Shown here: piece after piece, positions 8,712-42,472 of the stretch
Layout of the letters: the number at the start of each line of letters is the position of its first letter
Numbering within the stretch: the stretch's first letter is position 1
Position numbers and translations under genes: made by a program
Origin: Flavobacterium sp. CF136
GTDB lineage: Bacteria; Bacteroidota; Bacteroidia; Flavobacteriales; Flavobacteriaceae
Length of the DNA stretch: 64,000 nucleotides
Direction of reading: 5' to 3'
Assembly (NCBI RefSeq): GCF_000282055.1
Contig: NZ_AKJZ01000040.1
Span: 124,001-188,000 of the forward strand
Notes under the pieces: model-generated
The model's database searches: none
What the model was told of the DNA's origin: nothing
Seen by the model: only the letters and a program-made list of their open reading frames with translations

Positions 8712-10232
8712 TTAATTATTGATAAGATGATCTTTTACTTTTTGAACAAAAGGATACATTACCTGATCTTCTTTAAATTCAGGAATTATGTTTCGAATAT
8801 CGTCATACCATTTTTTGGTTACCGATGAAATTTTATCTTTTTGAGCTAAATAATCAATTGCCTGAACAATTGTAATCATTTCGATACTCAAAACTTCAAA
8901 AGCATTTTCGATTACCTTTGAGGTAATTACGGCCGCATTTGTACCCATGCTTACAATATCCTGATTGTCATTGTTGTTGGGGATACTGTGAACATACATT
9001 GGGTTTGACAACATCTGACTTTCTGCAGTTGTTGAGGTTGCTGTAAACTGAACGCCCTGCATTCCGAAATTAAATCCTAATGTTCCTAAATTGACAAATG
9101 GAGGAAGGATTTCGTTGAGTTTTGAATTTAGTAAATAATTCAATTGACGTTCTGCTAGCATCGTTAATTTGGTAATAACAATTTTAAGTTTATCCATTTC
9201 AAGCGAAATATAATCGCCATGAAAATTTCCTCCGTGATAAACGTGTTGGTTTTTTACGTCGATAATCGGATTGTCGTTTGCCGAGTTAAATTCGTCTTCC
9301 AAAATAGAAGCGACATTATTTATTGTTTCTAAAACCGGACCTAAAATTTGAGGTACACATCTTAATGAGTAATACTCCTGGACTTTTTCTTTGAAAATTT
9401 CCTCAGTGTTCTCTCCTGAATATAAATGGTCTTCTCTTTTACGGATCAAAGTGCTGTCTGAAAGATTTTGTCTCATTCTTGCAGCAATTTCCTGTTGTCC
9501 TTTATGACGTTTGGTTTGGTTTAATTCTTCAGAGAAATGATCGTCATACGCCTGTACCAATTCGTTTATTGCACAAGAACATTTTAAAGACCAATCTAAT
9601 AATTTATTGGCATGATGCACATTTACCACTCCAATTCCGGTCATTACTGAAGTTCCGTTAATCAATGCCAGGCCTTCTCTGATTTCTACCTGAATTGGTT
9701 TTAGGCCTTCGATTTCGAAAACTTCGGGAGTTGGTCTTCTGTCTCCTTTATAAAAAACTTCGCCTTCACCAATTAAAACTAAAGCTAAGTGCGACAATTG
9801 TACTAAATCCCCACTGGCACCAACGCCGCCATGTTCGAAAATCAATGGTGTAATATCTCTATTGATAAGTTCTGCCATTAAATGGATTACAGATGAGTGA
9901 ACACCTGAATTCCCCAGCGATAAGGAATTTAAACGAGCTAAAATTGCTGCTTTTGCGCAAACCGGGCTTAAAGGTTTTCCCGTTCCGGAAGAGTGGCTTC
10001 GGATTAAATTATATTGTAACTGAATTTGGTCAGATTCTTTAATTCGATATTGTGCCATTGGACCAAAGCCTGTATTTACACCATATATTACTTTGTTCCC
10101 TGAAAATTCTTTTAAGAAATTAAAACTTTCATTTATACGATTTAGCACTAAATCGCTAATTACAACTTTATTATTTCCAAAAATAATAGCTTCAAATTCG
10201 GCTAAACTTAAATATTCATTAATTGTATTCAT
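8712..10232 (-). CDS. tyrosine ammonia-lyase (HAL/PAL family) of the flexirubin pathway
   Basis: A 506-residue aromatic amino acid lyase. The Ala139-Ser140-Gly141 triad in GGVGASGDLVQLSH cyclises to the MIO cofactor. Ser79-His80 in LIRSHSSG is the substrate-selectivity position (His is found in TAL and HAL; PAL has Phe). From memory, the sequence is an orthologue of the characterised F. johnsoniae tyrosine ammonia-lyase, with the same length and near-identical blocks throughout. It would make 4-coumarate from tyrosine as the starter for the aryl polyene. It is the first gene of the minus-strand operon and is divergent from the halogenase-like gene. Histidine ammonia-lyase is the alternative, but no hutU, hutI or hutG gene is nearby. 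Confidence 0.9.
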   Translation of the reverse strand: MNTINEYLSLAEFEAIIFGNNKVVISDLVLNRINESFNFLKEFSGNKVIYGVNTGFGPMAQYRIKESDQIQLQYNLIRSHSSGTGKPLSPVCAKAAILARLNSLSLGNSGVHSSVIHLMAELINRDITPLIFEHGGVGASGDLVQLSHLALVLIGEGEVFYKGDRRPTPEVFEIEGLKPIQVEIREGLALINGTSVMTGIGVVNVHHANKLLDWSLKCSCAINELVQAYDDHFSEELNQTKRHKGQQEIAARMRQNLSDSTLIRKREDHLYSGENTEEIFKEKVQEYYSLRCVPQILGPVLETINNVASILEDEFNSANDNPIIDVKNQHVYHGGNFHGDYISLEMDKLKIVITKLTMLAERQLNYLLNSKLNEILPPFVNLGTLGFNFGMQGVQFTATSTTAESQMLSNPMYVHSIPNNNDNQDIVSMGTNAAVITSKVIENAFEVLSIEMITIVQAIDYLAQKDKISSVTKKWYDDIRNIIPEFKEDQVMYPFVQKVKDHLINN

Positions 10233-14617: not shown

Positions 14618-16303
14618 TTACCAGAACTTAGCGTACAAAGCAAAAATAACCAATAGTGTAATGACAATCATTACTGTAGTTTGTGGTTTTACTTTGAACA
14701 TTTCAGTGTCTAATTCAAAAGCTTTTGGATTAATTTTCGGTCCGGCAAAACTTATAGCAATCATCGCTAATGTTGTAAAGAAGAATGATAATCCCATACA
14801 AATGTGGAATGGAATTTCGAAAGTACCTTTACCGTTAGGATAAGCTGTGTACAATAATGTTTCGTTTCCGAATAACATTGGCGCATATTCGTTGAATAAA
14901 ACAGACAATACAAATCCTAAAATTACACCTACAATTGCTGCAGTTCCGGTTGTTCTTCTCCAGAACATACCAAGAATAAACATAGCAAATACTCCAGGAC
15001 TAATAAAACCTGTATACTTTTGGATGTATGTAAATCCACCAACTCCACCAATTCCTAAAAGGTCATTCCAAGTGAATAAAACAGCTAAAAGCATTGCAGC
15101 AAATACGGCAATTCTACCAATATTTACCTGTTGTCTTTCGCCAGCTTCTTTTTGAATGTATTTTTTATGAATATCTAAAGTATAAATAGTCGAAATACTA
15201 TTTACTTTACCCGCTAATGAAGCTACAATTGCAGCAGTTAATGCAGCTACAGAAAGTCCTTTTAAACCTGTTGGCAAAAACGTTAATACAGCTGAGTAAG
15301 CTCCGTCTTTTCCTCCAACTAATTGTGGTAAATGCCCGTTTTGGTATAAAACATAAGCAGCAATACCCGGCAACATTACAATTAATGGCATTAATAATTT
15401 TAAGAAACCTGCAAATAAAATACCTGTACGGGCAGTTTGTAAGTCGGCACCTAAAGCTCTTTGGGTAATGTATTGGTTACAACCCCAGTAATTTAAGTTA
15501 ATAATCCAGATACCGGCAAGGTAAGATAATAATCCAGGGAAAGTTAAATATTTATCAATCTCAAGTTGAGATGAAGTTGCAGTTGGTTTAGGGATAATCA
15601 TTTTGAAATGCTCAGGAGCTTCTCTCATTAAAACTTTAAAACCGGCAATTGCATTTTCACCTACTCCAAAATATTGTCCAACAGTTGTAAGAGCGATGTA
15701 TGAAGTTACTAAACCTCCAATAATTAAAACAGCAACCTGAATAACGTCTGTATAGGCTACAACTTTCATACCTCCTAAAGAAATAAATAAGGCAAATACG
15801 GCTAATCCTACCATGATAACGTGAAGATATTCTCCACCGGCTAAACCATTAATAGCAACAGCCCCTAAATATAAAATTGAAGTTAAGTTTACAAAAACAT
15901 ATAAAAACAACCAAAAAACTGCCATAATCAGCGCTGTCGATTCATTGTAACGTGTTTTTAAGAATTGAGGCATTGTATAAATCTTGTTTTTAAGATATAC
16001 AGGAATGAACCATACCGCTACAATAATCAATGCAATAGCAGCTATCCATTCATAAGCAGCAACAGCGATTCCTAAAAAGAAACCTTCACCACTCATTCCA
16101 ATAAATTGTTCGGCTGATATATTAGAAGCAATTAATGAAGCTCCAATAGCCCACCAAGTCAGGTTTCCTTCTGCAAGAAAATAAGCTTTGGCATCGTGTT
16201 CGTTTTTTTCGCGTTTGCGATAAATCGTATACCCATAAGTGGTAACTACGATAAAATAGATAATAAATACTGCATAATCTGCAAAAGCAAGGTTCTGGCT
16301 CAT
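14618..16303 (-). CDS. sodium/sugar symporter, SSS (SGLT) family
   Basis: 561 residues with about 14 predicted membrane helices. The block GASLIASNISAEQFIGMSGEG is the SGLT signature and is nearly the same as in the Vibrio Na+/galactose transporter vSGLT; NLNYWGCNQYITQRAL is also typical. It imports a hexose or pentose with Na+ across the inner membrane. Its substrate is ambiguous from context. Downstream of galE it could serve galactose. But its promoter region carries an AraR-like palindrome (16479-16499), and no other arabinose importer is in the window, so L-arabinose is a serious alternative. Confidence 0.88.
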   Translation of the reverse strand: MSQNLAFADYAVFIIYFIVVTTYGYTIYRKREKNEHDAKAYFLAEGNLTWWAIGASLIASNISAEQFIGMSGEGFFLGIAVAAYEWIAAIALIIVAVWFIPVYLKNKIYTMPQFLKTRYNESTALIMAVFWLFLYVFVNLTSILYLGAVAINGLAGGEYLHVIMVGLAVFALFISLGGMKVVAYTDVIQVAVLIIGGLVTSYIALTTVGQYFGVGENAIAGFKVLMREAPEHFKMIIPKPTATSSQLEIDKYLTFPGLLSYLAGIWIINLNYWGCNQYITQRALGADLQTARTGILFAGFLKLLMPLIVMLPGIAAYVLYQNGHLPQLVGGKDGAYSAVLTFLPTGLKGLSVAALTAAIVASLAGKVNSISTIYTLDIHKKYIQKEAGERQQVNIGRIAVFAAMLLAVLFTWNDLLGIGGVGGFTYIQKYTGFISPGVFAMFILGMFWRRTTGTAAIVGVILGFVLSVLFNEYAPMLFGNETLLYTAYPNGKGTFEIPFHICMGLSFFFTTLAMIAISFAGPKINPKAFELDTEMFKVKPQTTVMIVITLLVIFALYAKFW

Positions 16304-16441: not shown

Positions 16442-16471
16442 CAAAAGTAAAGTAAAAATAGTTATGGACAA
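16442..16471 (-). promoter_or_regulatory. promoter of the sugar symporter
   Basis: On the minus strand: -33 TTG (16469-16471), 19 bases, then -7 TACTTTTG (16442-16449), a full match to the Bacteroidetes vegetative consensus. The message would have a leader of about 130 nt. Confidence 0.6.
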
Positions 16472-16478
16472 TAAAAAA

Positions 16479-16499
16479 CAAATGTGTTTTTTACATTTG
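16479..16499. promoter_or_regulatory. AraR-like palindrome upstream of the symporter
   Basis: CAAATGT, seven bases, ACATTTG: arms and spacing equal those of the operators before tkt and susC (CAAATGT / TAAATGT, N7, ACACTTA). It lies 8 bases upstream of the -33 element, not over the promoter, so the geometry differs from the tkt and susC sites and the call is tentative. Confidence 0.45.
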
Positions 16500-16557
16500 T
16501 AACAAAAAAGAGGATTAAATAACAAAAAAGATATAATTTCCAGTGTATTTAGACTTT

Positions 16558-21210: not shown

Positions 21211-22209
21211 ATGAATATTATTTCTATCCAAAATAATCTTGGTTTACCAAAATATAAACAGATAATTCTATCGATTGAAAAGGCAATCGAAGAAGAAAAG
21301 CTGATAAAAGGTGATCGCCTTCCTTCTGTGAATAAGGTTTGTCTGGCTTTCTCATTATCTCGTGACACTGTTTTGCAAGGGTATGATGAGCTCAAAAAAA
21401 GGGGTATTATTTATGCTATACCAGGAAAAGGCTATTACGTTAAAAGTGTAGAAATCACTATAAAACAAAAGATATTTTTGTTGTTTGATGAGTTAAATAT
21501 TTTTAAGGAAGACATTTATAATTCCTTTTTAAAAAATATCGGAAAAAACGTTCAGGTCGATATATTTTTTCATCATTTTAATGTTCCGGTATTCAAAAAA
21601 CTGATAAATGACAGCAACGGAAATTATACCAAGTATATAATTATGCCGACTAACTTAATCGATATAGTTGATAGCATAAAAACCCTACCAGTAAATGAAG
21701 TGATTATATTAGATCAGACTAATCCGGATTTAAAATCATATCCTGCTATTTACCAAAATCATAAAAAAGACATTTTTGAAGGATTGTATAAAGGAAAATC
21801 AAGACTGAGTAAATACGAAAAGCTTATTTTGATTTTTCCGGGATTCAGAGAACCTCTTGGAATGAAAATCGGCTTTGAAAATTTTTGTGCTGAATATGAT
21901 TTTGAATATGAAATTATAACTGAATTTAAAGACAGGGAGATTTCAACCGGAGATTTATATGTTATTCCTAATGATAGAGATCTCGTTATGGTAATCGAAA
22001 ATGCCAGAAACCATAATTTAAAACTGGGCTTGGATTTTGGAATTATTTCCTATAATGAAACACCGCTAAAAAAAGTTGTAGCGCAGGGAATTACAACAAT
22101 ATCAACACATTTTGAAGCCATGGGGAAAATTTTAGCCGAAATGGTTCTTAAAAGTAAAAATGAACAAATCGAAAATAAATCCTCTTTGATTATGCGTAAC
22201 TCGCTCTAA
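21211..22209 (+). CDS. GntR-type transcriptional regulator with sugar-binding-like effector domain
   Basis: 332 residues. Residues 12-75 form a GntR winged helix-turn-helix (KYKQIILSIEKAIEEEKL, then GDRLPSVNKVCLAFSLSRDT and YAIPGKGYYV). Residues 85-332 resemble a LacI/periplasmic-binding-protein fold, ending DFGIISYNETPLKKVVAQGITTIS. This architecture is common in Bacteroidetes sugar regulators. Divergent placement suggests control of the gal operon with a galactose-related effector; that is inference. The gene stands alone before the tkt promoter. Confidence 0.8.
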   Translation: MNIISIQNNLGLPKYKQIILSIEKAIEEEKLIKGDRLPSVNKVCLAFSLSRDTVLQGYDELKKRGIIYAIPGKGYYVKSVEITIKQKIFLLFDELNIFKEDIYNSFLKNIGKNVQVDIFFHHFNVPVFKKLINDSNGNYTKYIIMPTNLIDIVDSIKTLPVNEVIILDQTNPDLKSYPAIYQNHKKDIFEGLYKGKSRLSKYEKLILIFPGFREPLGMKIGFENFCAEYDFEYEIITEFKDREISTGDLYVIPNDRDLVMVIENARNHNLKLGLDFGIISYNETPLKKVVAQGITTISTHFEAMGKILAEMVLKSKNEQIENKSSLIMRNSL

Positions 22210-22303: not shown

Positions 22304-22335
22304 TTGTTTTTGTGAAATTATTTTACATACATTTG
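22304..22335 (+). promoter_or_regulatory. promoter of tkt
   Basis: -33 TTG at 22304-22306, 21 bases, then TACATTTG at 22328-22335. The AraR-type operator begins at the very next base, covering the expected transcript start. Confidence 0.65.
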
Positions 22336-22356
22336 TAAATGTAAATTTTACACTTA
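22336..22356. promoter_or_regulatory. AraR-type operator before tkt
   Basis: A 21-bp palindrome: TAAATGTAAA, a central T, then TTTACACTTA, with one mismatch between arms. It directly abuts the -7 box, a classic repressor position. It shares its core (TGT, seven bases, ACA) with the sites before susC, araR and araB. Confidence 0.65.
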
Positions 22357-22472
22357 TTATTTAATTTGATTTTACTTCAGAATAGAAAATGATTTCTATT
22401 TAAGATTCAGTTGAAACAAATCATTAAACCACTATAAACAAAACCAATTAGTTTTTAAATTATAACTTAGAA

Positions 22473-24515
22473 ATGAACAACAAAATAGACCAATTAGCCG
22501 CAGATAATATAAGGGCTCTAGCCATTTCGATGGTAGAAAAGGCAAATTCAGGACATCCGGGAGGATCAATGGGAGGAGCTGATTTTATGCACATTTTATA
22601 TTCCGAATATTTAAAATATGATCCAACTGATATGCATTGGATTTTTAGAGACCGCTTTTTTATGGATGCGGGTCATCTTTCAGCTTTAATGTATGCACAA
22701 TATCATTTGTTGGGGAATTATGAAAAATCAGATCTTCAAAATTTCAGACAATGGGGTTCTGTTACACCGGGGCATCCTGAAATTGATGTAAAACGTGGTG
22801 TTGAAAATACTTCCGGACCATTAGGACAAGGACATGCAATGGGTGTTGGAGCTGCAATTGCAGCCAAATTTTTATCGGCAAGATTTGAGAATTTATTTGA
22901 TCATAAAATTTATGGTTTTATAACAGACGGTGGTGTTCAGGAAGAAATTTCGCAAGGTGCAGGACGTATAGCGGGACATTTGGGATTGAATAATTTTATT
23001 ATGTTTTACGATTCAAATGATGTGCAATTGTCCTCAATGACAGATGAGGTTACGACTGAAAACACAGCAATGAAATATAAATCATGGGGATGGAATGTTA
23101 TCACAATTGATGGTCATGACCATACTCAAATCCGTAGCGCCTTAACGGATGCGCATAACGAATCGGAAAAACCAACCTTGATTATTGGAAGAACGATAAT
23201 GGGCAAAGGTTGTGTTACTGCTGATGGAACAATGTATGAAGGACAGTGCGAATTACACGGAAAACCAATTGGTGCCACAAAAGCTGATTTTGATAAAACA
23301 CTATTAAATTTAGGTGCAAAAATTGAAGATTCATTTGCTGTTTATGAAGAAGTTGCGACTTATTATGAAACTATTTTAGCACAAAAAACAAAAGAAGCGG
23401 CTGATAGAAAATCGCAAATTGCAGTGTGGGAAAGTAAAAATTCTGCATTAGCACAAAAAATGAAACAGTTTTTCTCAGGAGATTTACCAGCTTTAGATTT
23501 TAGCAGTATAACTCAAAAACCAAATGCTGCAACCCGTGATGCTTCTGCTGCAGTTTTAGGATATTTGGCTGAAAATGTAGAAAATATGATCGTATCTTCT
23601 GCAGATTTATCAAATAGTGATAAAACAGATGGTTTCTTAAAAAAATCATCAGTTTTACAAAAAAATAATTTCAACGGAGGGTTTTTACAAGCTGGAGTTG
23701 CTGAATTGACGATGGCTGCAATTGCTAACGGAATTGCACTTCATGGTGGAGTAATTCCAGTAGTGGCAACATTTTTCGTTTTTTCTGATTATATGAAACC
23801 GGCAATTCGTTTGGCTGCAATTCAGGAATTACCGGTAAAATATGTCTGGACACATGACTCTTTCCGTGTAGGGGAAGACGGACCTACGCATCAGCCAATT
23901 GAGCAGGAAGCACAAATTCGATTATTGGAAAAAATTAAAAATCATTCCGGAGACCAAAGTTTATTGGCTTTGCGTCCTGCAGATGCTGTTGAAACTTCTG
24001 TAGCCTGGCAAATGGCACTTGAAAATAAGAAAACACCAACAGGTTTAATTCTTTCAAGACAAGATATAAAAGATATTCCAACAGTTGGAAGCTCAAGATT
24101 TGATGATGCTTCACAGGCAAAAAAAGGCGGTTATCTGGTAAAATCTACTCCAAATTCTGATATTACTTTAATTGCAAATGGTTCAGAAGTAGCAACTCTT
24201 ATTGAAGCTGCTGCTGAAATTGAAAAAACAATCAAGATTAAAATAAATGTTGCTTCCATAATTTCCGAAGGATTGTTCAGATCACAATCTGCATCCTATC
24301 AGGAAAGTGTAATTCCAAAAGGAGCATTGGTCTTTGGACTTACTGCGGGACTTCCTGTTAATCTGGAAAGTTTGGTTGGAAGTAACGGAAAAGTATTTGG
24401 ACTGGATCACTTCGGATATTCTGCTCCGGCTTCTGTTTTGGATCAGAAATTCGGTTTTACCAGTAAAAATGCTGCTGAAGAAATCATCAAATATTTAAAA
24501 GAAAACAATTTTTAA
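22473..24515 (+). CDS. tkt: transketolase
   Basis: 680 residues, a full-length single-chain transketolase. The N-terminal thiamine-diphosphate domain has [12 protein letters not shown] and [10 protein letters not shown], with the metal-binding region at [12 protein letters not shown]. The middle pyrimidine-binding domain has the substrate histidine in [16 protein letters not shown]. It moves two-carbon units between pentose and hexose phosphates. It pairs with the transaldolase 23 bp downstream. With an AraR-type operator over its promoter it appears dedicated to arabinose-derived xylulose-5-phosphate; another housekeeping transketolase may exist elsewhere. Confidence 0.93.
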
Positions 24516-24538
24516 TTCATCAAAATAAAAGAAAAAAC

Positions 24539-25195
24539 ATGAAATTTTTTATAGACACAGCAAACTTAAAAGATATTAAAGAAGCCAATGATTTGGGAGT
24601 ATTAGATGGTGTTACAACAAACCCGTCATTAATGGCAAAGGAAGGAATTACCGGAGCACAAAATATTTTGGATCATTATATAAAAATCTGCGAATTGGTT
24701 GAAGGTGACGTAAGTGCCGAAGTTATTTCAACAGATTTTGATGGAATGATTGCCGAAGGTGAAAAATTAGCAGCTTTGCATCCGCAAATTGTGGTTAAGA
24801 TTCCGATGATAAAGGACGGAGTAAAAGCCATTAAATATTTTTCGAATAAAGGAATTAAGACAAATTGTACATTGGTGTTCTCATCAGGTCAAGCATTGCT
24901 GGCTGCAAAAGCAGGTGCAACTTATGTATCTCCATTTATCGGTCGCTTAGATGATATTTCGACAGATGGAATGAATTTGATTGAAGAAATCAGATTGATT
25001 TATGATAATTATGGTTTCGAAACTCAGATATTGGCGGCTTCTGTTAGAAATGTAATGCACATTATTAATTGTGCAAAAACAGGATCTGATGTTATTACAG
25101 GGCCTTTGAGTGCAATTGAAGGTTTACTAAAACACCCTTTAACAGATATTGGTTTGGCTACTTTTTTAGCCGATTATCAAAAAGGGAATAGCTAA
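24539..25195 (+). CDS. transaldolase, fructose-6-phosphate-aldolase-like small subfamily
   Basis: 218 residues, the short TalC/FSA type of transaldolase. The start [16 protein letters not shown] carries the conserved Asp6. [13 protein letters not shown] and the Schiff-base lysine Lys87 in VVKIPM follow, and ILAASVRN is also present. It transfers dihydroxyacetone units in the pentose phosphate pathway. Sequence alone does not separate transaldolase from F6P aldolase, but pairing with tkt favours transaldolase. It shares the tkt transcript and is followed by a terminator. Confidence 0.9.
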
Positions 25196-25245
25196 AAATA
25201 AGAATAATTAGTTTAGTTTTTTAATAAGTAGTTTTTATTGAAGTA

Positions 25246-25288
25246 AAAACCCTGAAAGTTTGAGGCTTTCAGGGTTTTGTTTTTTTAT
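25246..25288 (+). terminator. terminator after tkt-transaldolase
   Basis: The perfect 13-bp stem AAAACCCTGAAAG / CTTTCAGGGTTTT has a 7-base loop and is followed by a T-rich tail. Confidence 0.85.
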
Positions 25289-25307
25289 TAGTTTGAATGT
25301 GGTTTGT

Positions 25308-25351
25308 ACGCAGATTTTTGCAAATTCATTATAATCCTTTTAATCTGTGGC
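25308..25351 (+). repeat. dispersed ~45-bp repeat, copy 1
   Basis: It runs from ACGCAGATT through TGCAAATT and TAATCCTT to AATCTGTGGC. A second copy in the opposite orientation lies at 40171-40217, with the same blocks in the same order. It is intergenic and non-coding. Confidence 0.6.
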
Positions 25352-25364
25352 TCTAAACCTTTTT

Positions 25365-26054
25365 CTATAAATTAAGTACAAAATCGTTTAGTAATTTTTC
25401 TTCATATTTTTCTTTGTTGAAAGTATACAGATACGATCCTTTTCTGGAAGATTGCATGTCTTTTTCGTCCAGTTTATTTAAAATTTCCAAGGAGTTAATC
25501 TTACTGATAAAGTTTCGTTTGTCTAATTCTTTACTTAAAATTGCTTCATATAATTCCAGCAACTGTCGCATGGTGAATTTTTCAGGTAATAATTCAAATC
25601 CAATTGGTTTTATTGAAGTTCTGTAACGCAATCTTCTAATGGCGTGTTGTACCATTTCGTTATGGTCAAAAATAAGATTTGGAGCATCGACAACACTAAA
25701 CCATTGTGCATGATAATTTTTAATTAATTCAGCATTATGGTTTTCAATATTAATTAATGCATAATAGGAAACAGAAATAGTTCGGTCTACGGGATCACGA
25801 TCAATTTCGCTGTAAGAATGTAACTGCTCCATATATATGTCGTGTAACCCGGTATAAGTATTCAAAATCCTGATAGCAGCATTGTCTAATATCTCATCGC
25901 GTTTCAAAAACCCGCCGATCAGAGACCATTTTCCCTTTTCGGGTTCAAAGTCCCTTTTGATTAAAAGTATCTTTAATCCCTGATGGTCAAACCCAAAAAT
26001 GATACAATCTACCGCTAATAAAACCTTATCGGCAGAGCTATAACTGTTTAGCAT
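25365..26054 (-). CDS. araR: AraR: Nudix-related (NrtR-type) transcriptional regulator of arabinose use
   Basis: 229 residues from the ATG at 26054; the frame opens 6 bases earlier with a TTG. Residues 8-140 are a Nudix fold (VLLAVDCIIFGFDHQGLKILLIKRD, then GKWSLIGGFL). The Nudix box is degenerate: GGFLKRDEILDNAAIRIL is followed by NTYTGL, lacking the REXXEE catalytic glutamates, so hydrolysis is unlikely. Residues about 150-229 are the winged-helix DNA-binding domain of the NrtR family. In Bacteroides the NrtR-type AraR represses arabinose genes and is released by L-arabinose. Position between tkt and the arabinan locus, and a palindrome upstream of its own start, support that role. Confidence 0.88.
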   Translation of the reverse strand: MLNSYSSADKVLLAVDCIIFGFDHQGLKILLIKRDFEPEKGKWSLIGGFLKRDEILDNAAIRILNTYTGLHDIYMEQLHSYSEIDRDPVDRTISVSYYALINIENHNAELIKNYHAQWFSVVDAPNLIFDHNEMVQHAIRRLRYRTSIKPIGFELLPEKFTMRQLLELYEAILSKELDKRNFISKINSLEILNKLDEKDMQSSRKGSYLYTFNKEKYEEKLLNDFVLNL

Positions 26055-26108
26055 AATCAATTTTTTATCGGTAAATATATAAACTTCCTAATAGCTTTCA
26101 TAATTTTA

Positions 26109-26129
26109 TTAATGTGTTTTTAACACTTA
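26109..26129. promoter_or_regulatory. AraR-type operator upstream of araR
   Basis: TTAATGTGTT, a T, TTAACACTTA. The right arm is perfect and the left is weaker, but the TGT-N7-ACA core is kept. It lies 55 bases before the araR ATG, suggesting autoregulation. Confidence 0.5.
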
Positions 26130-26392
26130 ACTGAATTTTATCATAACATACCCTTAAATAAGTGCATTTTTCACAAACTCAAGGCATCTTATTTAGCTAA
26201 TAAATTGCTTCTCTGACGTAAATTGCTTTGTTCATTTATATATAAAATGAATTTTAATCAAAAATTAACTTTTTTAAATAGGATTTTGAGTACAAAAAAT
26301 AATTCTTTTTATCTAAAAATGAATCAAAATCAGTCTTTCTTAATAATTTTTTTAATTATCCTTTTTTTGCTTAAAAATCTGCTTTTTCATTA

Positions 26393-26413
26393 AAAGTGTA
26401 AATTTTACACAAA
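26393..26413. promoter_or_regulatory. AraR-type operator, distal site before susC
   Basis: AAAGTGTAAA, a T, TTTACACAAA: an almost perfectly symmetrical site in the middle of the araR-susC gap. Confidence 0.55.
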
Positions 26414-26457
26414 TAATTTGGCCAAAACGCTATTTTTTTGAAAATAATGTCAGGTTT

Positions 26458-26478
26458 TAAATGTAGATTTAACACTTA
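26458..26478. promoter_or_regulatory. AraR-type operator, middle site before susC
   Basis: TAAATGTAGA, a T, TTAACACTTA. Its centre is 65 bases from that of the distal site and 99 bases from that of the proximal site, which would permit looping. Confidence 0.55.
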
Positions 26479-26524
26479 AATTACGAGATGCGTTTTTTTC
26501 ATTGATTTTTTTTACGATATTAAT

Positions 26525-26556
26525 TTGTTTTTGCGCTTTTTTTTTATTTAAATTTA
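26525..26556 (+). promoter_or_regulatory. promoter of susC
   Basis: -33 TTG at 26525-26527, 21 bases, then the weak -7 box TAAATTTA at 26549-26556. The spacing and the operator that follows at the next base are identical to the tkt promoter. The remaining 550-bp araR-susC gap holds the AraR sites and otherwise only AT-rich sequence. Confidence 0.55.
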
Positions 26557-26577
26557 CAAATGTAAAATTAACACTTA
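26557..26577. promoter_or_regulatory. AraR-type operator, promoter-proximal site of susC
   Basis: CAAATGTAAA, an A, TTAACACTTA. It abuts the -7 box exactly as the tkt operator does. Confidence 0.65.
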
Positions 26578-26610: not shown

Positions 26611-29600
26611 ATGATAACAAAACCACAATTATTTCTTTATTGGAATTTTTTATTACCAAAAAAAGAATGGCTCATAGCATTAGTAATGCTATTACTATCT
26701 GTTAATCAAATGTCAGCTCAAGACAAAGAGATTAAGGGAGTTATTACTTCGGCACAGGACAAATTACCTTTGCCGGGAGTAAATATTATGATAAAAGGGA
26801 CTAAAACTGCTGTTACAACAGGATTTGATGGTGAATATTCTATTAAAGCATCACCAAACAATGTATTAGTTTTTTCATTTTTAGGGTATCAAAAACAAGA
26901 AGTTACTGTAGGAACACAATCAACAGTAAATATAGCTTTAGGTGAAGATACTAATAAATTGAATGAAGTAGTAGTTGTAGGATACGGAACACAAAAGAAA
27001 GGAGATCTTACGGGTTCTATTAGTGTCGTAAACATGGCAGATGCTAAAAAGACAGTTACTTATGATCCTGCAAAAATGCTTCAGGGTCAAGTAGCAGGTG
27101 TTACCGTTCAATCTTCTGGAGAACCGGGAGGTTTTGTAAATATTAAAATTAGAGGTGTTAATTCATTTGCTAATAATAATCCGCTTTTTGTTATTGACGG
27201 AATGATAGTTGATTCTCCTTACGATTTTGCCCCGGGAGATATAGAATCTATGCAGGTTTTAAAAGATGCATCTTCAGCTGCGATTTATGGTGTTCGCGGT
27301 GCCAATGGAGTTATTATTATAACTACTAAAAAAGGAAAAGCAGGAAAGTTAGATATTAAATACAAATCAATTGTAGGGTTTCAAAATGTTGCAAAAGAAT
27401 GGTCTTTGACAGACAGAGCAGGTTACCAAAAAATTACTACTGCGGCTGAGATAAATAAAGGTCTTACTATTGCTCCGGGAAATGATCCTACAAGTCCATA
27501 TTATATTAATAATGTAAATACAGATTGGCAAAAGGAAGCTTTTCAAACAGGGATTGTTCAAAATCATTCCTTAACATTCAATGGTGGAGCTGAAAGTTTA
27601 GGTTACAATTTGAATGTTGATTATTTTAAGAACGACAGTTATTTAAAATCGCCGCAGGAATATGAAAGATTATCTACTAATTTGAATTTATACGGTAAAA
27701 AAGGTAAATTTAAGTATGGTGCAAAATTAGGATATACACAGTCTGACAAAGAAAATTTTAATAGTTACTCAGGTGCTTCAGCTATTGCAGATTTATTAGG
27801 TGCTATTCCAACGATGCCGGTTTATGATGCTAACAGACTTGGAGGTTATGGAGGTACGGACGTCTTAACTCAAAAAGCAATTTCGATGAATGTTATAGGT
27901 TTTAATAATTTAATAACCAATAATGGGAAAAGAAATCGTTTTATAGGGGATCTTTGGGCAGAAGTAGAAATTATAAAAGGGTTAAAATATAAATTAGACG
28001 CTAGTTTTGACCGTGTAGATTGGCAAAACAGAAGATACATTCCGGAGAGTGATTTAGGATGGTATTATATCACTAAAGCAGATGAAGCTACATTAGATGT
28101 TTCTACAGGTCATGAATCAAGAACATTTTTGAATAATTTATTAACCTATGAAGTTTCATTAGGGAAGCATAAAATTGATGCTTTGGCAGGTTGGATTCAA
28201 GAGAGAACAGATAATTATAATCACTGGTCAAAAGGAACAGGATATAAATATGGCAGTATCAGTCAGATTGAATATGCTACTGTAGACATTAGTGCAGGTG
28301 AATATAACAGAACCATTACAGGTATTTCTTATTTAAGCAGATTGAATTATTCTTATGATGACCGTTATTTTGTTACCGGAAACTTCAGACAAGATAAAAC
28401 ATCGCTTTTTGCTCCGGAGAATAATACAGGTAATTTCTACTCTTTTTCAGGAGCCTGGAAAATTAGCAATGAAAAGTTCTTACACTTACCAAAATGGTTT
28501 AATACGATTAAAGTAAGAGGTGGTTATGGTGAACTAGGAAATAATACAATAGGGCCATACGCATATACTACTACAATAAACAAATTTGCAGGTTACGATT
28601 TTAATAATGAGCTTGCTCCGGGAACAACGGTGGTTAGTGCAGTTGATCCAAATGTACACTGGGAAAATACAAGTACAGCGAATGTAGCTCTTGAGTTAGG
28701 GTTTTTTAATAATGATCTTCAATTTACTGGAGAATATTATCAAAAAAAATCAACGGATTTATTAATTGGTGTACCATTACCTTTTTCAACAGGAGCATTT
28801 CCGGCAAGTGTTGTAACAAATGCAGGAGCAGTAAAAAATACAGGTTTAGAGTTTACAGCTACTTATAATAACCGTCATAATAAATTTAAATACAACATCT
28901 CTGCAAATTTAGGGACTTTAAAAAATAAAGTAACTCAAATTGGAATTAATGGAAATCCTATATATGGAGCAGCTGCAAAAACAGAAGTAGGCAGATCAAT
29001 TGGTGAAATTTTTGCTTGGGAAACAAATGGTATTTTTCAGGATGCAGCTGATTTAGCATCTTCTCCAACACAAAGTAATGCAGGAATTGGTGATCAGAAA
29101 TTTAAAGATGTAAACGGCGATGGTGCTATTACTGATGCAGATAGAACATACCAAGGAGTTACAATTCCAAAATACAGTTATGGTTTCAACTTCAGTGCAG
29201 AATATAAAAACTTTGATTTTTCAATGTTTTGGCAAGGAGCAGGAGGAAATAAAGTATTCAATGCAATGTATCGTAATTTAATGATTGGAGATTATGGAAA
29301 TCATCATACAGATGAGTTGAATTATTGGACACCAACCAATACTAATACGAATGTTCCTCGTCCAATTATAGGAGATCCAAATGGAAATGCAAGAGATTCA
29401 AATAGATTTATTGAAAGCGGAAATTATGTGAAATTGCAAACTATGCAAATCGGATATACAATTCCGTTAAAAGATAAATTTATTAAAAACGCAAATATTT
29501 ATGTTAACGGACAAAACCTGTTAATTATTAGTAAATACAAAGGCTATGATCCGGATTTTAACAGTAATGACGGATTATTTTCAAGAGGATATGATGCGGG

Positions 29601-29652
29601 ATCTTTCCCAAATCCAAGAACTATTTCTTTAGGAGTTGAAGTACAGTTTTAA
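26611..29652 (+). CDS. susC: SusC/RagA-type TonB-dependent outer membrane transporter
   Basis: 1013 residues. After a signal peptide ending near residue 36 (LLSVNQMSAQ) comes a carboxypeptidase-regulatory-like domain (GVITSAQDKLPLPGVNIMIKG), then a TonB box-like region and the plug (NEVVVVGYGTQKKGDLTGS, DASSAAIYGVRGANGVIII). The 22-strand barrel follows, ending in an aromatic C-terminus (ISLGVEVQF). It imports glycan fragments across the outer membrane using TonB. Paired with susD 29 bp downstream and followed by arabinan-degrading enzymes, it probably imports arabino-oligosaccharides. Three AraR-type sites precede it. Confidence 0.93.
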   Translation: MITKPQLFLYWNFLLPKKEWLIALVMLLLSVNQMSAQDKEIKGVITSAQDKLPLPGVNIMIKGTKTAVTTGFDGEYSIKASPNNVLVFSFLGYQKQEVTVGTQSTVNIALGEDTNKLNEVVVVGYGTQKKGDLTGSISVVNMADAKKTVTYDPAKMLQGQVAGVTVQSSGEPGGFVNIKIRGVNSFANNNPLFVIDGMIVDSPYDFAPGDIESMQVLKDASSAAIYGVRGANGVIIITTKKGKAGKLDIKYKSIVGFQNVAKEWSLTDRAGYQKITTAAEINKGLTIAPGNDPTSPYYINNVNTDWQKEAFQTGIVQNHSLTFNGGAESLGYNLNVDYFKNDSYLKSPQEYERLSTNLNLYGKKGKFKYGAKLGYTQSDKENFNSYSGASAIADLLGAIPTMPVYDANRLGGYGGTDVLTQKAISMNVIGFNNLITNNGKRNRFIGDLWAEVEIIKGLKYKLDASFDRVDWQNRRYIPESDLGWYYITKADEATLDVSTGHESRTFLNNLLTYEVSLGKHKIDALAGWIQERTDNYNHWSKGTGYKYGSISQIEYATVDISAGEYNRTITGISYLSRLNYSYDDRYFVTGNFRQDKTSLFAPENNTGNFYSFSGAWKISNEKFLHLPKWFNTIKVRGGYGELGNNTIGPYAYTTTINKFAGYDFNNELAPGTTVVSAVDPNVHWENTSTANVALELGFFNNDLQFTGEYYQKKSTDLLIGVPLPFSTGAFPASVVTNAGAVKNTGLEFTATYNNRHNKFKYNISANLGTLKNKVTQIGINGNPIYGAAAKTEVGRSIGEIFAWETNGIFQDAADLASSPTQSNAGIGDQKFKDVNGDGAITDADRTYQGVTIPKYSYGFNFSAEYKNFDFSMFWQGAGGNKVFNAMYRNLMIGDYGNHHTDELNYWTPTNTNTNVPRPIIGDPNGNARDSNRFIESGNYVKLQTMQIGYTIPLKDKFIKNANIYVNGQNLLIISKYKGYDPDFNSNDGLFSRGYDAGSFPNPRTISLGVEVQF

Positions 29653-42328: not shown

Positions 42329-42428
42329 TCGCAACAGAATAAATGTAAAACTAACGTTTATTTTCTGTTTTGATCTTAAATTCCTGTTTTGGTGCATTAT
42401 TTGTAAAAAACAGTTAACTTATTTTTAT

Positions 42429-42449
42429 TAAGTGTTTTTTGTACACTTA
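42429..42449. promoter_or_regulatory. AraR-type operator before araB
   Basis: TAAGTGTTTT, a T, TGTACACTTA. The outer arms are perfectly complementary over seven bases. The site contains the TTG -33 element of the araB promoter. Confidence 0.6.
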
Positions 42450-42472
42450 TAAATTAATTATTTTTATATTTG
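42439..42472 (+). promoter_or_regulatory. promoter of the araB-araD-araA operon
   Basis: TTG at 42439-42441, 23 bases, then TATATTTG at 42465-42472, an exact -7 consensus. The ATG follows 22 bases later. Confidence 0.6.

Follow-up and report, generated by a model that had tools for sequence, protein, structure and literature searches.

Predicted AraR operators over the putative transcription starts of tkt and susC in Flavobacterium sp. CF136

The window analysed here is a 64-kb stretch on contig 40 of the 5.1-Mb assembly of Flavobacterium sp. CF136, in which araR, encoding an AraR-like repressor, lies in divergent orientation between the transketolase and transaldolase genes (tkt-tal) and a cluster that begins with susC. 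The promoters of tkt and susC share one layout, in which a TTG, 21 bases, a -7 box and a single base are followed by a palindrome; this layout is real and conserved in relatives, while the type of switch is already known. We consider it very probable, from the sequence and its conservation, that the palindromes are AraR operators placed over the starts of both genes, and that L-arabinose would relieve the occlusion of what appear to be sigma-factor promoters. This offers a conserved model, exact to the base, for the way in which an arabinose repressor may meet a Bacteroidota promoter, would connect arabinose sensing in Flavobacterium with the pentose-phosphate genes tkt and tal, and presents a compact, putatively arabinose-controlled promoter with clear predictions.

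The shared layout of the tkt and susC promoters

The elements concerned are listed below. Promoters of relatives were counted where an operator with at most one mismatch lies within about 300 bases of the gene, taking the nearest operator only, in a conservation set of 80 loci.

22304-22306, forward strand: tkt promoter, -33 TTG (found with the 21-base spacing in 10/10 Flavobacterium tkt promoters that have an operator)
22328-22335, forward strand: -7 box TACATTTG of the tkt promoter (TAnnTTTG in the same register in 10/10 Flavobacterium and 2/2 other tkt promoters with an operator)
22337-22355, forward strand: predicted AraR operator AAATGTAAATTTTACACTT, about -3 to +16 relative to the predicted tkt start
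22473-24515, forward strand: tkt, transketolase (Pfam/NCBIfam)
24539-25195, forward strand: tal, transaldolase/fructose-6-phosphate aldolase-like (Pfam/NCBIfam)
25365-26054, reverse strand: araR, AraR-like repressor with a Nudix-like domain of impaired signature followed by an NrtR/AraR winged helix
26525-26527, forward strand: conserved -33 TTG of the susC promoter (23/24 Flavobacterium susC promoters)
26549-26556, forward strand: -7 box TAAATTTA of the susC promoter (TAnnTTT[GA] in 23/24 Flavobacterium and TAnnTTTG in 3/7 other-genus susC promoters)
26558-26576, forward strand: predicted AraR operator O3, AAATGTAAAATTAACACTT, about -3 to +16 relative to the predicted susC start
26611-29652, forward strand: susC, SusC/RagA TonB-linked outer-membrane protein, first gene of the arabinan-use cluster

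The original prediction, which held that both promoters have an identical layout, was right to the base at tkt: the TTG at 22304-22306, N21, TACATTTG at 22328-22335 and the palindrome from 22336/22337 are all in place, and the box fits the consensus TAnnTTTG. At susC it had named TTG 26531-26533, N21 and TACAAATG 26555-26562; these letters are present, but the parse lies six bases too far downstream. Nor does the palindrome begin directly after that box as had been claimed, its left arm lying inside TACAAATG and the operator AAATGT-N7-ACACTT occupying 26558-26576. The corrected susC layout reads TTG 26525-26527, 21 bases, TAAATTTA 26549-26556, one base and the operator from 26558. The registers as originally quoted are unequal, but with the corrected coordinates the identity of the two layouts survives, operator register included, because the corrected elements give a spacing of 21 together with the operator register of tkt.

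The corrected register has to be weighed against the possibility that the susC promoter is as first parsed (TTG 26531-26533, N21, TACAAATG), in which case the operator would overlap the -7 box in a register unlike that of tkt and the shared layout would be a chance match in spacing. The two differ in conservation, since TTG 26531-26533 is kept in 9 of the 24 Flavobacterium susC promoters as opposed to 23 for TTG 26525-26527, and TACAAATG departs from TAnnTTTG at two positions that are nearly invariant in -7 boxes. Across the upstream regions of relatives TTAATTTGTTT and TTAAATTTAC are retained at most susC genes while the downstream TTG varies, and distant susC homologues of other genera (loci L073, L079 and L087) have TAnnTTTG at the corrected register. 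Several observations weigh against the correction. TACAAATG is itself retained in 23/24 Flavobacterium susC promoters and in 26/26 arabinofuranosidase promoters, although the operator accounts for five of its eight bases. TAAATTTA has no final G, and none of the 24 Flavobacterium susC promoters has TAnnTTTG, 23 of them reading TAnnTTTA. At susC of Lutibacter (L058) and of genome G175 (L156), the 8-mer at the corrected register is TTATTTTA, so that TAAATTTA is missing while TACAAATG is present, and these two sequences would favour the box first proposed. A looser pattern, TTG-N21-TACANNTG, is also over-represented in the window. On the conservation of the TTG and of the consensus, the first parse was rejected as the main reading and retained as a rival that we regard as decidedly unlikely.

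The last base of the -7 box (26556 in the window) is A in 23/24 Flavobacterium susC and 26/26 arabinofuranosidase AraR promoters, and G in those of tkt (10/10) and tal (4/4); this A/G split may set promoter strength.

Chance expectation and conservation in relatives

The spacing alone had been thought hard to obtain by chance, a view that was not borne out: TTG-N21-TANATTTR occurs four times in the window against 2.05 expected, and since 16 of 100 shuffles reach this number, 21 bases between TTG and box are not in themselves unusual. The looser TTG-N21-TACANNTG is found five times against 0.79 expected, a number reached by 0/100 shuffles, although this pattern was fitted to these very sites and two of its five matches lie inside open reading frames (ORFs). 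A third TTG-N21-TACAAATG, at a symporter gene (16494-16525), was set aside because the TACAAATG letters are not conserved in most of the relatives compared and because the relatives have a TAnnTTT[GA] box 45-48 bases from the operator start. When box and operator are searched together at up to two mismatches, the window yields seven matches (0.20 expected), among which just those of tkt and susC are exact. The rare feature is thus the junction of box and operator, not the TTG-21-box arrangement.

This composite (-7 box, one base, operator) was sought at up to one mismatch in 299 Flavobacteriaceae genomes, giving 28 matches in 18 genomes as against a single match for the reversed pattern. A control with the box moved three bases further away, a slightly looser pattern, likewise gave one match, in 1/299 genomes. 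This multi-genus search with its shifted control is a better test than the locus counts given below. Nineteen of the 25 composites outside the own genome precede arabinose-linked genes (four tkt, two tal, four susC, five arabinofuranosidase, one GH43 and three GH97), and ten of these nineteen have a TTG at 20-22, two of the ten being in the same-genus genome G127. The remaining six comprise one before a sulfatase gene, one before an AIR-synthase-like gene, two without a long ORF within 400 bases, and two facing copies before genes for a solute-binding protein and a secreted protein. In the own genome a further composite, outside the window on contig 12, precedes a GH43 enzyme gene, and a search of five genomes from the genus of G315 returned two weak matches.

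Among 308 operators (as compared with 44 for the reversed consensus), a box at offset -9 was matched 94 times against a mean of 5.1 per offset. A peak at offset +12 (134 matches) was disregarded, as TACATTT arises from the reversed half-site ACATTT itself. Of these 94 composites, 56 have the TTG at 21 and 28 have it at 15. For comparison, TTG spacing around 234 TAnnTTTG boxes of Flavobacterium intergenic DNA, a sample that includes the AraR promoters, has no sharp peak, 21 being the highest (0.081), followed by 18 (0.060).

Gene by gene, 12 of 14 tkt promoters (that of the window and those of the 13 AraR loci that also contain a complete tkt) carry the composite; these are ten of the twelve Flavobacterium promoters, all ten with TTG at 21, and both promoters from other genera, neither with TTG at 21. 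In the Flavobacterium loci L041 and L042, where tkt is near araR, no such operator was found before tkt. All four tal promoters have the box and TTG at 21. For susC, Flavobacterium promoters have TAnnTTT[GA] in 23/24 and TTG at 21 in 23/24, as compared with a box at -9 in 3/7 and TTG at 21 in 3/7 in other genera, while for arabinofuranosidase genes the box is found in 26/26 and TTG at 21 in 12/26 within Flavobacterium and in 3/13 and 1/13, respectively, outside it. The box-operator junction is thus the more widespread of the two features, and the 21-base spacing is mainly a trait of Flavobacterium.

In L011, L014, L046 and L061, where tkt is missing from the locus examined, tal alone follows the same composite promoter; a susC or arabinofuranosidase gene can likewise follow the promoter divergent to araR.

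Beyond these loci, a search with AraR_C in 296 genomes of the phylum gave matches in 20 and 22 loci of about 3 kb, among which an operator at up to one mismatch was present in two, neither having a box within 60 bases. Six longer regions (L152-L157) showed no box at -9, and one of them, L156, has two sites before susC. In another, the distant Bacteroidota araR region L155, two tandem AraR-like palindromes 43 bases apart are seen at 9659-9720, one with a box at -8; relatives of araB, araD and araA are found 6-9 kb away, and the arrangement resembles the tandem Bacteroides sites.

AraR and the proposed switch at the transcription start

The protein encoded at 25365-26054 (ATG at 26054, the ORF as listed starting with TTG at 26060) matches Pfam NUDIX (8.8e-11), NrtR_WHD (3.3e-22) and AraR_C (4.2e-09), and aligns to the Bacteroides thetaiotaomicron AraR (BtAraR, 5bs6) over residues 3-220 without a gap in 218 residues (phmmer 6.4e-67); named relatives reach up to 97% identity. 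Its Nudix signature is impaired, reading GFLKRDEILDNAAIRILNTYTGL with three signature glutamates replaced, and the enzyme is presumed inactive. In the L-arabinose pocket nine of the ten listed residues are identical to BtAraR (Y5, R34, F36, G47, G48, F49, R86, F129 and H131), V92 being changed to T. Upstream of arabinose genes two GTGT/ACAC arms are found seven bases apart, as in the BtAraR operator. AraR at no less than 62% identity is encoded in 38 of the 299 genomes, 13 more having only relatives at 49-54%, and composites occur in 14/38 genomes with AraR versus 4/261 of the others (Fisher p 5.5e-11). AraR is the likely repressor at these palindromes.

Further points tell against the reading as a whole. 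Of the six BtAraR DNA contacts, K179, R180 and N181 are identical here and three differ (K184 to S, K204 to R and R205 to K), although all six are called absolutely conserved in AraR orthologs (PMC4666351). At up to one mismatch, 24 of the 38 AraR genomes are without a composite, and 4/18 composite genomes are without AraR at the identity threshold; one of these four has a relative of 53% and an arabinofuranosidase target, while the three that have no AraR match at E 1e-70 (L106, L109 and L115) carry composites with no arabinose gene behind them, which look like chance occurrences. Outside Flavobacterium, the box at -9 is found in just three of seven susC and three of 13 arabinofuranosidase promoters. 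The locus counts are not independent trials, since the 80 loci are related. Because the genome encodes four further NrtR-type relatives (34-44% identity), cross-talk is possible.

A different regulator could act at the palindromes, namely the GntR/LacI-like protein encoded at 21211-22209, directly before tkt. It has a GntR domain followed by a periplasmic-binding-protein-like domain, the domain order of Bacillus AraR, and 39 of the 50 Flavobacterium-grouped loci (L009-L057 and L061) contain a relative at 69-92% identity. However, tkt, susC or arabinofuranosidase composites occur in L036, L055, L058, L064, L069, L071, L073, L079 and L087 with no relative at E 1e-10 in the stretch examined, though one may lie elsewhere in the genome. 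The palindromes follow the operator plan of the NrtR-type AraR, the composites track the Nudix AraR across genomes, and the gene is divergent to galactose genes (galM/galK/galT/galE), a likelier target. This protein is thus highly unlikely to be the regulator in place of AraR. A repeat unlike the AraR operator, ACCAGTACCTACCAG, was noted by eye in its intergenic region.

Many transcription start sites of F. johnsoniae lie 4-5 nt after the -7 box, the final G of which is nearly invariant (PMC6847099). The same distance predicts starts at about 22340-22341 for tkt and 26561-26562 for susC, within 1-2 nt of the positions 22342 and 26563 given by the original prediction, though not identical with them. 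The proposal that the operator covers the predicted start agrees with its position at about -3 to +16 in both promoters, and different genes and genera keep this arrangement; the sequence, the start placement and this conservation are consistent with a block of initiation as the mode of repression. Since BtAraR covers 25 bp and is displaced from DNA by L-arabinose (PMC4666351), and since the operator lies at about -3 to +16, start occlusion would be the most economical reading; that AraR represses tkt and susC by blocking initiation appears well supported by the sequence.

In the proposed mechanism, the main Bacteroidota sigma factor would transcribe tkt-tal and the susC cluster from TTG-N21-TAnATTT[G/A], and the 6-7-6 palindrome AARTGT-N7-ACACTT one base after each -7 box would serve as the operator of the Nudix/winged-helix AraR. 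When L-arabinose is lacking, an AraR dimer is expected to cover about -6 to +19 and to compete with RNA polymerase for the start; L-arabinose bound in the Nudix-like pocket, as demonstrated for the B. thetaiotaomicron protein, would turn the winged helices off the DNA and free the promoter. The sequences themselves show the elements, their register, the conservation of these between genes and genera, and the co-occurrence with AraR; we infer AraR as binder, its repression, its effector and the start sites from sequence and homology. A start-covering operator is exemplified by lacO1 of Escherichia coli, where the repressor competes with polymerase at +1; the same competition is envisaged here, with a different protein family and promoter type.

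Comparison with described systems places the repressor beside the homologous NrtR-family AraR of B. thetaiotaomicron (BT0354; PMC4666351, PMC3878776; phmmer 6.4e-67 as above), with which it shares the operator plan GTGT-N7-ACAC (PMC4666351). L-arabinose abolishes DNA binding by BtAraR, whose regulon is arabinose-induced (PMC4666351). In this genome susC and araB are preceded by such sites, and in relatives among the Flavobacteriaceae so are arabinofuranosidase and GH97 genes; these kinds of gene are also named for the Bacteroides AraR regulon. Besides the three altered DNA contacts, the differences are that tkt and tal belong to the AraR set here, the word 'transketolase' not occurring in PMC3878776; that araR lies apart from araB, araD and araA, which are further along the window, unlike in the B. 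thetaiotaomicron regulon; and that each operator keeps a fixed register relative to the -7 box, a feature not discussed for the B. thetaiotaomicron protein in the parts available of PMC4666351. Promoters of the main sigma factor of Bacteroidota have TTTG and TAnnTTTG (PMC6847099, PMC9723704, PMC7366714, PMC2483708). The present promoters appear to resemble them in the TTTG at -33, in the -7 box (TAnnTTTG at tkt, araB and the symporter gene, TAnnTTTA at susC and araR) and in a predicted start 4-5 nt downstream. Genome-wide, F. johnsoniae shows hardly any -33 motif (PMC6847099), whereas TTG at 21 is kept in Flavobacterium AraR promoters and strongly so in those of tkt, tal and susC. In the literature searched on AraR, arabinose regulons and Flavobacterium promoters, no record of the box-operator layout was found.

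Other predicted AraR sites and their registers

Further predicted sites and promoter elements were located in the window as follows.

14618-16303, reverse strand: sodium:solute symporter gene with a predicted AraR operator upstream
16442-16449, reverse strand: predicted symporter -7 box TACTTTTG, placed by hand (relatives have a TAnnTTT[GA] box at offset 45-48)
16480-16498, reverse strand: predicted AraR operator before the symporter gene, about -61 to -43
26072-26079, reverse strand: predicted araR -7 box TATATTTA, placed by hand (TATATTTA lies 47-48 bases from the operator in the araR promoters of the relatives listed)
26110-26128, reverse strand: predicted araR operator AAGTGTTAAAAACACATTA, about -61 to -43 of araR
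26394-26414, forward strand: auxiliary AraR-like site O1 upstream of susC, AAGTGTAAATTTTACACAAAT, with three mismatches to the 21-mer
26459-26477, forward strand: auxiliary predicted AraR operator O2 upstream of susC
42341-42359, forward strand: upstream predicted AraR operator of araB
42430-42448, forward strand: predicted AraR operator of araB, covering the -33 region
42465-42472, forward strand: -7 box TATATTTG of araB

The -7 consensus TAnnTTTG is present at araB and the symporter, while the araR box reads TAnnTTTA, without the final G. These sites, together with those of tkt and susC, fall into three position classes: the predicted start itself at tkt and susC, the -33 region at araB, and a place near -52 at araR and the symporter. 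At araB the palindrome had been correctly placed over the -33 region, 42430-42448 lying at -47 to -29 from the box TATATTTG; in relatives the operator stands 33-35 bases before the -7 box in 27 promoters, covering -33, and the TTG within the palindrome is not conserved in several relatives. At araR and the symporter the operator-to-box offset in relatives is 47-48 (37 promoters) and 45-48 (28 promoters), being exactly 48 in 35 and 24 promoters, respectively, and by hand count it is 49 in each of the two window promoters. The two promoters have one common geometry, kept in relatives, in which the operator precedes the start of the -7 box by 48-49 bases.

Upstream of susC, AAGTGT-N7-ACAC is present at the place of O1, shifting by a few bases, in 18 of 27 stretches from relatives. 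The distance from O2 to the downstream O3 is exactly 99 bases in the window, and an exact AARTGT-N7-ACAYTT stands at that distance in 17 of the 27; in both counts four stretches (L053, L055, L056 and L057) have a misplaced gene start, cannot show the site and were scored as misses.

The fixed class near -52, with its operator 48 bases before the box, and the two extra sites upstream of susC would suit an AraR that binds the palindromes but acts at some promoters, such as those of araR and the symporter, mainly through activation or DNA looping and not by simple occlusion. We consider this unlikely, as arabinose relieves DNA binding by BtAraR and induces its regulon in the manner expected of a repressor (PMC4666351), and the start-covering site at tkt and susC requires no loop. 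A broader view, put forward tentatively as less likely than not, would see one repressor in three fixed, gene-specific registers (+1 at tkt, tal, susC and arabinofuranosidase genes, -33 at araB and near -52 at araR and the symporter), each kept in relatives, as a position code that might set differing basal levels, an order of induction or even activation from a single arabinose signal.

Elsewhere in the same genome, outside the window on contig 12 (L003), a gene for a GH42 beta-galactosidase-like protein is preceded by a nearly perfect match to the AraR operator.

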